Below, in pieces: positions 236-2,186 of a stretch of 64,000 nucleotides of DNA (the first letter of the stretch is position 1; each line of letters begins with the position of its first letter). Below the pieces are notes generated by a model. It searched no databases. It was not told the origin of the DNA and was given only the letters and a program-made list of their open reading frames with translations. The DNA is from Lactiplantibacillus garii (lineage in GTDB: Bacteria; Bacillota; Bacilli; Lactobacillales; Lactobacillaceae). The stretch lies in the NCBI RefSeq assembly GCF_003885105.1, contig NZ_QWZQ01000001.1, positions 1-64,000 on the forward strand. The letters run 5' to 3'. Position numbers and translations under genes: made by a program.

Positions 236-1888
236 CTATTTAGCAATGTACGCGTACTTGTAGTTCCACTGAGTACCAGCAGTGTTGTGAATGATCCCCT
301 TGACCTTCGGATTTTGCAAGTAGGAGTAAACCGTTTGGTAAAGCGGCGTAATCCCCTGATCCTGCATAATGGTCCGTTCAGCTTGCAACATGTCTTGCCA
401 GCGGGCGTTAACGTTGTTGGCATCCTTATTTTGAGCCTTGTCAACTAACCCGTTATAAGTACTACTACTGTATTTTCCGTAGTTATAACCACTGTTACTG
501 GTCATGATCTGCAAGTGTGAAATCGGATCGTTAAAGTCCGCGCCCCAACCACTAAGGTAAAGGTCGAAGTTACCAGCTTGAGCCCGACTCTGCGCAACCT
601 TAGACGGAATGTTCGATAAATCCACCGTTAGCCCGCTAAGGTTCTTTTCGAGCGCTGATTTCAAATATTGTGAAATTGGCTTGTTTGGCTCATCGTTGGA
701 CGTTAGCAAATGCAGTGTCAACTTCTTTAATCCGGTTTCCTTTAAACCTTGTTGCCAGAGCTTTTTAGCTAACGCGGTATCATACGACGTGGAGTTTTTC
801 ACCGTTGATTCGTCCGCAAAGTCCTTACCCGTTTTCGGGTCGTTAGCCAAGTCTTGCGGAACAAACGTTTTAGACGTTGTCGACGCATCACCAATCACGT
901 TTTTAACCAACGTTTTCCGGTTGATTGATAAGGAAATCGCCTGCCGAATCTTTTGGTTGTTCAACGCCTTTTTTACGGTCGCATTACTGTCCTTAAAGTT
1001 GTAGACCAAAAATGCGGTAATGGAGTACGGGTACGTCGTGTAATCGCTGTTGGACTTCATGTTTTTTACCTGTTCACTCGCTAACTGAGTCAGGTCCAGC
1101 TTCTTTTCCTGGAATAGGTTTAACGTCGTCGTGGTGCTTTCGTTAACCGTATAATTGATCTTTTGTAAATGCACGGCCTGCTTATCCCAGTACTGGTTGT
1201 TTTTAACAAACTGCCAACTGTTGTTGGTCCCAGTCCAACCCGTTAACTTAAACGGCCCGCTGTAAAGCATGTACTGGGCCTTAGTTGCGTACTTGCTCCC
1301 CCACTTTTTAACGGCCTTTTCACTAATCGGTCCGAAGAGTGGGTACGTCATTAATTTTTTGAAGTAACTGATGGGTTTATCCAGCGTCACAATAAAGGTG
1401 TGCTGACCAACCGCTTTAACCCCCAACGTACTTGGCGACTTTTTACCAGCAACGATGGCATCCGCGTTTTTAACGCCGGAAAATAGGTAGGCATACTGCG
1501 ACTTAGTGGCTGGCGTCACCGTTCGTTTCCAAGAATAAACAAAGTCCTGGGCCGTGATTTTAGACCCGTCACTCCACTTGGCATCCCGAATCGTAAAGGT
1601 ATAAGTTTTACCATCCTTGGAAACCTTAGTTGCCTTAGCTAATCCGGGTGTAATACTCCCGTTTTTACCCAACCGGTACAAACTTTCGAAGACGTTCCCG
1701 GTACTGCCGTAACCGGACATGTTGGAAATGTCAATGGAATCTAACGTGCTTGGGTAAGATAAATTCAAGACCTGATTGCTAGCGTACTTGCCGTTACCGG
1801 AATTTTGACTAGTTTGTTTTCCACAAGCCGCCAACACCGTTACTAACATTAAACTAAAAATAACCGTTAATACTGATCGCTTTTTCAA
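236..1888 (-). CDS. OppA-type peptide ABC transporter substrate-binding lipoprotein
   Basis: A 550-residue solute-binding protein of family 5 (OppA/DppA). It has a lipoprotein signal with lipobox LAAC (Cys22), then the family pattern with the long two-lobed binding region (LAKATKVSKDGKTYTFTIRDAKWSDG near residue 85, the segment that typically follows strand 3). It should sit on the outer face of the membrane and deliver oligopeptides to an Opp permease. No permease or ATPase genes adjoin it, so it is an orphan binding protein; such extra OppA copies are common in lactobacilli. The start is TTG. Upstream lie a Cys-rich leader ORF and a terminator (separate entries), which suggests control by cysteine supply and a role in taking up Cys-containing peptides. 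That ligand is inference only. Confidence 0.88.
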   Translation of the reverse strand: MKKRSVLTVIFSLMLVTVLAACGKQTSQNSGNGKYASNQVLNLSYPSTLDSIDISNMSGYGSTGNVFESLYRLGKNGSITPGLAKATKVSKDGKTYTFTIRDAKWSDGSKITAQDFVYSWKRTVTPATKSQYAYLFSGVKNADAIVAGKKSPSTLGVKAVGQHTFIVTLDKPISYFKKLMTYPLFGPISEKAVKKWGSKYATKAQYMLYSGPFKLTGWTGTNNSWQFVKNNQYWDKQAVHLQKINYTVNESTTTTLNLFQEKKLDLTQLASEQVKNMKSNSDYTTYPYSITAFLVYNFKDSNATVKKALNNQKIRQAISLSINRKTLVKNVIGDASTTSKTFVPQDLANDPKTGKDFADESTVKNSTSYDTALAKKLWQQGLKETGLKKLTLHLLTSNDEPNKPISQYLKSALEKNLSGLTVDLSNIPSKVAQSRAQAGNFDLYLSGWGADFNDPISHLQIMTSNSGYNYGKYSSSTYNGLVDKAQNKDANNVNARWQDMLQAERTIMQDQGITPLYQTVYSYLQNPKVKGIIHNTAGTQWNYKYAYIAK

Positions 1889-1942: not shown

Positions 1943-1987
1943 AAAAAACGCCTGCTTAGAATCTCGTCAGATTCCAAGCAGGCGTTT
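1943..1987 (-). terminator. Strong terminator hairpin between leader ORF and oppA-like gene
   Basis: A stem of about 18 pairs (AAACGCCTGCTT on one arm, AAGCAGGCGTTT on the other, with one G-U wobble) and a 4-nt loop is followed on the minus strand by a run of six T. It lies between the promoter/leader ORF and the oppA-like start, so full expression needs readthrough or antitermination. Confidence 0.85.
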
Positions 1988-2015
1988 CAAAAATAACGTT
2001 TTGAGCTCAATGCCG

Positions 2016-2123
2016 TTAGATTTGATGCACTAGAGACGCTTGTAATTCAACGCAAATAACCATGTTGTTAGTTTCACAACATGGGCAGCACATCATCATT
2101 TGTTGGTTAGCTGACTTTTGCAT
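2016..2123 (-). CDS. Cys-rich leader peptide (putative attenuator ORF)
   Basis: A 35-codon ORF beginning MQKSANQQMMMCCPCC and ending at TAA. It has a good Shine-Dalgarno (GGAGAGA, 7 nt before ATG) and a consensus promoter just upstream. Five of its 35 codons are Cys, four of them in the cluster Met-Met-Met-Cys-Cys-Pro-Cys-Cys. A perfect 9-bp stem (CCATGTTGT with ACAACATGG, about 2060-2083) overlaps the Cys codons, and a strong terminator follows about 30 nt after the stop codon. This is the layout of amino-acid attenuators, where ribosome stalling at scarce-charge codons changes RNA folding. A small Cys-rich metal- or thiol-binding protein is the alternative. I do not recognise a named family. 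Confidence 0.65.
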   Translation of the reverse strand: MQKSANQQMMMCCPCCETNNMVICVELQASLVHQI

Positions 2124-2156
2124 GATTACGTCTCTCCGATTTCATAAGATGTGTTC

Positions 2157-2186
2157 AGTATAGATTTAGCTGCTTACTTTTGTCAA
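2157..2186 (-). promoter_or_regulatory. Consensus promoter of the leader/oppA-like unit
   Basis: On the minus strand TTGACA (2186-2181) and TATACT (2162-2157) are separated by 18 bp. This is close to the ideal housekeeping promoter, so basal initiation should be strong and control is more likely after initiation. Confidence 0.85.

Follow-up and report, generated by a model that had tools for sequence, protein, structure and literature searches.

A conserved cysteine-codon leader before an OppA-like gene of Lactiplantibacillus garii, a probable ribosome-mediated attenuator

The leader upstream of an OppA-like gene in Lactiplantibacillus garii in all probability works as a ribosome-mediated transcription attenuator, responding to cysteine supply and presumably controlling the import of cysteine-yielding peptides, judging from sequence comparison and RNA folding. 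It carries two of the parts by which such attenuators are recognised: a short ORF with a Shine-Dalgarno (SD) sequence and repeated codons for a single amino acid, and a terminator between ORF and gene. An earlier note on this DNA had described a promoter, an SD, a 35-codon Cys ORF and a terminator with six T, in order before the OppA-like gene, together with a 9-bp stem in the Cys codons; all of these are in place (Table 1). Its reading of the leader as a cysteine attenuator gains support from conserved Cys clusters, a candidate antiterminator that the note had missed by eye, a start-masking helix, and T-boxes for Cys or Met before orthologous genes.

We infer the following order of events, including the stalling on uncharged tRNA and the substrate of the transporter. 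Cysteine supply would be sensed through the charging of Cys-tRNA. Transcription would begin near 2150, and a ribosome would translate the 35-codon leader. With ample Cys-tRNA, this ribosome would clear both the four-Cys cluster and the distal leader segment (D); D would pair again with the leader start region (R), the terminator would fold and oppA would be off. With no ribosome loaded, R:D would also form and oppA would be off. When Cys-tRNA is scarce, the ribosome would stall at codons 12-16; a queued or re-initiating ribosome, or in part the stalled ribosome itself, would occupy R and bar it from D, and the freed D would pair with the terminator 5' arm (T5), so that RNA polymerase reads into oppA. 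How a stalled ribosome keeps R off D is the step held with least confidence. That a Cys-codon attenuator is real here and responds to cysteine is very likely.

Table 1. Features of the leader region. Coordinates are those of the window (the whole 64,000-nt stretch of DNA analysed); the last row refers to another genome
Feature	Position	Strand	Basis or remark
-35 box TTGACA	2186-2181	-	sequence; 18-nt spacer to the -10 box
-10 box TATACT	2162-2157	-	sequence
SD of leader ORF, GGAG	2137-2134	-	sequence
R, 5' arm of sequestering helix, overlapping leader SD and start codon	2135-2117	-	MFE fold
Leader ORF, 35 codons, MQKSANQQMMMCCPCCETNNMVICVELQASLVHQI	2123-2016	-	ORF reading and conservation in the genus
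Putative sensor codons TGC TGC CCA TGT TGT (Cys-Cys-Pro-Cys-Cys, codons 12-16)	2090-2076	-	
9-bp hairpin inside the Cys codons, CCATGTTGT/ACAACATGG	2084-2076 with 2068-2060	-	
D, distal leader segment, partner of R (start masked)	2056-2032	-	fold and alignment
Fifth Cys of leader peptide, codon 24	2054-2052	-	
Candidate antiterminator, left arm (part of D), CGTTGAATTACAAGCG	2052-2037	-	pairs with 1980-1965
Middle hairpin over leader stop codon, TCAAA..TAACG..CGTTA..TTTGA	2025-1987	-	
Intrinsic terminator, 18-bp stem and six T	1986-1947 (stem), 1948-1943 (six T)	-	
Candidate antiterminator, right arm (terminator 5' arm and loop), TGCTTGGAATCTGACG	1980-1965	-	
OppA-like solute-binding lipoprotein gene (SBP_bac_5), TTG start	1888-236	-	
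Second Cys leader copy, MSTQKQFMQMMCCPCCATNNMAICVKLQASLVSQN	L167 (G001:C1:1275400-1279400), near 997-1180		in one Lactiplantibacillus genome, G001

The leader and its conservation

All leader features lie on the minus strand of the window, between whiA (3195-2263) and the OppA-like gene. The OppA-like protein belongs to Pfam PF00496 (E 1e-79); its NCBIfam names all fall below their cut-offs, and among solved structures the nearest are peptide binders of a general kind (best 5kzt), uninformative on cysteine. Rfam at gathering score gives no match within the window, and a search of 1880-2262 with E up to 1 returned one chance-level snoRNA match only and no T-box (RF00230). The end of whiA lies upstream of the leader in 9 of 20 Lactiplantibacillus relatives and is absent in the other 11; a link between whiA and the leader was rejected because this neighbour is common to part of the genus only, and the leader is therefore independent of whiA. 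Directly after oppA, at the contig end, stands a reading frame (1-135) which we take from its sequence to be transposase-like; at the same place several relatives have what is, likewise by its sequence, presumably a ClpP-like gene.

Within the genus, promoter, SD, 35-codon CCPCC ORF and terminator occur together in all 21 Lactiplantibacillus genomes examined, the promoter in the form TTGACAAAAGTAAG-N8-12-TATACT, and CCPCC itself is kept in 21/21 leaders. The peptide is well conserved towards its C-terminus, and its start varies in sequence and length (128 of 414 letters off the majority, in columns corresponding to about codons 2-8). Alignment gaps in the genus are of 3 or 6 nt inside the leader ORF and of 1, 2 or 4 nt outside it, the pattern expected of a translated frame. 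All nine pairs of the Cys-codon hairpin are invariant across the 21 sequences, so there is no covariation there. Just past the -35 box, the stretch AAAGTAAG (window 2180-2173) is identical in the 21 genomes, which exceeds promoter needs; it is possibly an operator. A search of the window's genome for the bare CCxCC pattern was uninformative (19 matches against 26 in the reversed control; 10 of the matches were inspected, for reading frame only).

Beyond the genus, a one-genome-per-species collection was searched for Cys clusters (at least three Cys in six residues) over 400 nt upstream and the first 30 nt of the gene, at the 80 best-ranked of 344 OppA relatives. A Cys-cluster ORF precedes the gene at 76 of these 80 Lactobacillaceae loci, against 2/80 on the reverse strand and a mean of 2.8/80 (maximum 7) in 20 rounds of dinucleotide shuffling; when a start and ribosome-binding-site score is added, the count becomes 73/80, against 0 on the reverse strand and a shuffled mean of 0.25. 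The earlier note had made its reading depend on the Cys codons and the ORF being kept in relatives; the clusters are indeed conserved, with flanks that drift between genera. Peptides have 24-47 residues, and both their flanks and the spacing of their Cys are genus-specific: CCPCC in Lactiplantibacillus, ACCxCN in Levilactobacillus, CCSMC in Lentilactobacillus, CACC and CCTACC in Pediococcus, CCCC in Ligilactobacillus, VCVCC and ECCC in Lactobacillus, CCNCC in Lapidilactobacillus, and TCCC in Secundilactobacillus. Among the four loci that do not pass, L078 fails the strict count and has a looser cluster (CMCMMPSCC); the remaining three, all Liquorilactobacillus, carry a Met-type T-box instead of a leader. 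The Agrilactobacillus leader is found with the correct gene start (L070) and not from the gene start of L026, and no leader was seen in a rough 400-nt window before the distant solute-binding proteins L029-L032.

Adding the window and six more Lactiplantibacillus sequences to the 76 ortholog loci gives a set of 83 leaders. An intrinsic terminator is called downstream of 82 of them, its T-run lying 52-118 nt past the leader stop codon in 81 and 179 nt past it in one (L097, where the call may be wrong); L082 has a leader and no called terminator. In 75 of 82 leaders the first clustered Cys falls at codon 10-16, which leaves about the width of one initiating ribosome before the cluster. After the cluster, the reading frame is shifted in 7 of 23 Levilactobacillus leaders and yields a different C-terminus, while the D RNA is partly kept in those seven (core identity 0.47-0.80 to the first sequence). 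By this comparison the distal leader peptide does not seem to matter, and such shifts over a partly kept D RNA argue against a functional small protein.

Alternative pairings and folding of the leader RNA

D can pair with R, at the SD and start codon, or with T5, two alternatives shown here computationally. The earlier note had pointed out that AGAGACG (2135-2129) is complementary to CGTCTCT (2038-2032) and that the leader start could thus be masked; this segment proves to be part of a conserved, covarying R:D helix. Pairing in the 21 Lactiplantibacillus sequences reaches 95% and 87% in the two helices of R:D and only 60% in a further helix of the MFE fold, which lies in the leader loop. One R:D pair reads A-U in 14 sequences, U-A in 3, C-G in 2, G-C in 1 and is unpaired in 1; a second reads C-G in 16, U-A in 3 and is unpaired in 2. 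Over the whole fold, 5 pairs show double changes against 2.8 in shuffles (31/500 shuffles reach 5), and 13 cells are double-changed against 3.8 (0/500 reach 13), the R:D covariation within this genus resting on few pairs. Among the 23 Levilactobacillus leaders, RNAalifold finds an equivalent 11-pair helix with no structure supplied, and six of its pairs are double-changed. Against shuffled D, the R:D duplex has a mean z of -2.9, with z below -2 in 64/82 leaders and in 12/21 from Lactiplantibacillus. The Cys codons sit in a hairpin of their own in both genera, the Levilactobacillus one being a different 9-pair hairpin at the same place. The middle hairpin has 98.1% and 99.0% of cells paired in its main helices and 87.3% in its inner helix.

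The candidate antiterminator, D:T5, comprises 13 pairs in Lactiplantibacillus, with 99.3% of cells paired and no double changes in 21 sequences; since these pairs scarcely vary, the evidence in this genus is invariance, not covariation. None of 336 letters varies in the right arm of the antiterminator. The terminator arms differ: 2/357 letters vary in the 5' arm and 29/357 in the 3' arm, where the changes are mainly G-U drift. A 5' arm constrained by two pairing partners would be expected to show this. The Levilactobacillus equivalent has nine pairs at 81% pairing, and 8 of its cells are double-changed, where shuffles give a mean of 4.0 (2/500 reach 8); its two outermost pairs are unpaired in 16/23 and 14/23 sequences. 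The energy of the D:T5 duplex alone is weak, with a mean z of -1.5 and z < -2 in 25/82 leaders and in 1/21 Lactiplantibacillus leaders. The terminator hairpin (-32.9 kcal/mol in a scripted hairpin fold) far exceeds D:T5 in strength, which means that any antitermination would have to be kinetic.

Folding tests used transcripts ending before the terminator 3' arm, with the fraction of T5 paired upstream as readout. This fraction was 0.34 in intact transcripts and 0.67 in transcripts shortened from the 5' end as far as a ribosome footprint at the first Cys; with D shuffled it was 0.51 intact and 0.45 after the same shortening, which takes away R and the Cys region. That freeing D has an effect is shown computationally: the difference beats the D-shuffled control in 82/82 leaders. 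Leaders of one genus are related, and P values for this comparison are therefore not to be taken literally. Upstream pairing of T5 rises by more than 0.1 in 74/82 leaders and the effect is reversed in 2.

An explicit model, with assumed ribosome footprint sizes, addressed single and paired ribosomes. One ribosome at the Cys cluster gave 0.40, against 0.36 without a ribosome and 0.45 at the stop codon, and exceeded both of these states by 0.1 in 11/82 leaders. It changes little because R still reaches D around the ribosome, and a lone stalled ribosome as sufficient release of D fails in this model. A single ribosome near the start codon, covering R, gave 0.55-0.59. A cluster ribosome together with an initiating ribosome on R gave 0.65, falling to 0.30-0.45 ten or more codons beyond; this two-ribosome state exceeded the no-ribosome and stop-codon states by 0.1 in 59/82 leaders. 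The model suggests that R has to be covered as well, possibly by a queued ribosome. A tentative extension, which we consider possible but doubtful, is that two ribosomes are required for antitermination, one stalled at the Cys cluster and another on the leader start. If true, the switch would read shortage of cysteine and capacity for initiation jointly, with the terminator arm acting as a decoy of the start region for the segment that they share.

Amino acid specificity and T-box elements

T-boxes with Cys or Met specifiers, at the same place before orthologous genes, lend indirect support to specificity for cysteine (or a sulfur amino acid). Rfam at gathering score finds nothing in 16 ortholog loci; the Liquorilactobacillus T-boxes appear only under an E-value threshold, two of them scoring 78 and 65.8 bits against a gathering score of 93 (E 3e-17 and 5e-14), and a third was recognised by eye from T-box sequence only. 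Specifier positions were calibrated on two T-boxes from a single Liquorilactobacillus genome, those of tyrS (GAAT-TAC-A) and metN (GAAG-ATG-A), tyrS being named above its cut-off and MetN as a best hit below cut-off. Read in this way, the specifier of the three oppA T-boxes is ATG, methionine, not Cys.

A second source of evidence is the additional leader copy of the Lactiplantibacillus genome G001 (Table 1), which stands before an amino-acid ABC operon of the order permease-permease-ATPase-binding protein. The first permease of this operon was found at 65 places in 64 of 301 genomes, and 30 of these places were inspected upstream. T-boxes, all below gathering score, precede 19 of these 30; their specifiers read TGC (Cys) in 15 and ATG (Met) in 4, three of the latter belonging to Lactiplantibacillus, and 7 of the 15 TGC readings are displaced by one nucleotide from the calibrated offset and less certain than the remaining eight. 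Cys-cluster leaders precede 3/30 operons (the G001 copy and two sharing one dissimilar peptide), leaders ending in Cys-Cys-stop precede 2/30, and 1/30 follows a cysteine synthase gene. No recognised element was found upstream of the remaining 5/30 (L185, L186, L187, L190 and L192). In this count L179, with a Cys-rich ORF plus a T-box, was entered as a T-box, and L192, with an 8-residue MCC ORF only, as nothing recognised. L196 and L198, of another genus, share the Cys-Cys-stop leader MLNNQFASRKISALVSMMACC, which lies some 190-220 nt ahead of the permease gene and whose stop codon comes immediately after the two Cys codons; a terminator-like hairpin follows it in L196.

In a published study, the L. 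paracasei FAM18149 operon glnP2-glnM2-artM2-glnH4 carries a Cys T-box, and its expression was higher in cysteine-deficient than in methionine-deficient medium, by log2 2.5 to 2.9 (PMC6004538). This operon is likened to that of G001 by its gene order. The exchanges between leader and Cys or Met T-box point to transporters that likely supply sulfur amino acids.

Other readings and known attenuators

Three other explanations were weighed. Cys clusters are natural metal ligands, and the nascent CCPCC peptide might itself be the sensor, with a bound metal or a thiol or oxidant stalling the ribosome and the transporter importing a metallophore or another thiol. The suitability of Cys clusters for metal binding speaks for this, as do matches of the OppA-like protein to NCBIfam nickel and staphylopine binders, which are of the same broad class and lie far below cut-off. 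However, Cys number and spacing vary freely between genera, which a binding site should not tolerate, and in other genomes these genes are preceded by T-boxes, elements that read tRNA; a peptide sensor is accordingly judged improbable. Most improbable is that the ORF encodes a small functional (e.g. metal-binding) protein whose transcript the terminator merely ends. The well-conserved C-terminal part of the Lactiplantibacillus peptide would suit such a protein, but R:D and D:T5 pairing can account for those conserved distal letters. The 35-residue peptide matches no Pfam or NCBIfam family up to E 1, and the range of lengths, the unlike flanks across genera and the Levilactobacillus frame shifts past the cluster also stand against it.

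A purely translational self-switch, in which R:D limits leader translation while oppA stays at a constant basal level determined by the terminator, with no control by cysteine, draws on the fact that R:D is the helix with the best covariation and that the terminator is far stronger than D:T5. Yet it leaves unexplained the Cys clusters in 76/80 leaders, the near-invariant terminator 5' arm and the exchange with T-boxes, and is judged very unlikely. Ribosome-mediated attenuation through Cys codons is preferred over each of these.

Among known systems, the E. coli trp attenuator is one of the closest: it has a leader peptide and mutually exclusive antiterminator and terminator, is off by default, and its leader ribosome-binding site is masked by a downstream segment. 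The window leader differs from it in amino acid and sequence, and in the proposed contest of the leader start and a terminator arm for one segment. The polycysteine leaderless short ORFs of mycobacteria, named in a 2020 title by Canestrari et al., are reportedly cysteine-responsive; they are leaderless by that title, whereas the window leader has an SD. Cys runs, as in the window leader, also characterise the actinobacterial Cys leader peptides, which lie before cysteine-related operons, but no conserved terminator hairpins are reported for the mycobacterial cases among them (PMC1262725), unlike the intrinsic terminator and candidate antiterminator here.

The uORFC-8-2 motif likewise combines an upstream ORF, tandem Cys codons in a stem and an intrinsic terminator, and ribosome-mediated attenuation has been proposed for it; it has two Cys codons and occurs in Rhodobacterales (Alphaproteobacteria) before cysS, for cysteinyl-tRNA synthetase (PMC8632094). 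The window leader was ruled out as an instance of that motif, since its gene is oppA-like and not cysS. A His leader peptide of bacilli, before hisS/hisZ, is similarly a Firmicutes leader attenuator that replaces a T-box, but it concerns histidine and genes of the tRNA-ligase type (PMC2965389). Cys and Met T-boxes are also known from lactobacilli (PMC6004538, PMC2494555). They bind tRNA directly, and in some genomes they take the position of the leader ahead of orthologous transporter genes; the window leader gives no T-box match.

Within the open PMC literature, a scope that most subscription papers fall outside, no published description of a leader of the window type was recognised. It is new as a widespread Firmicutes example and known in kind, as one of the ribosome-mediated attenuators. 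The job of cysteine sensor is usually done by T-boxes in Firmicutes; many lactobacilli now gain a probable cysteine sensor that Rfam misses, its design conserved between genera and its sequence not. These leaders offer a natural set of variants in which to study the rebuilding of one attenuator design from new sequence, and the transport of sulfur amino acids is a practical question in food and gut lactobacilli.

Some ortholog loci show further features around the gene. In Levilactobacillus, L063:5285-6085 and similar loci have a MetQ-like second gene after oppA (best NCBIfam hits, below cut-off), followed by what looks like an ATPase gene. In Ligilactobacillus salivarius, sufC follows oppA (L067:4398-5174); sufC serves iron-sulfur cluster assembly, a process that consumes cysteine. 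The contig JAEDAG010000001.1 (L087), titled Faecalicatena absiana, holds a Lactobacillus-like OppA with a Cys leader, and this record is possibly a mislabelled or mixed assembly.
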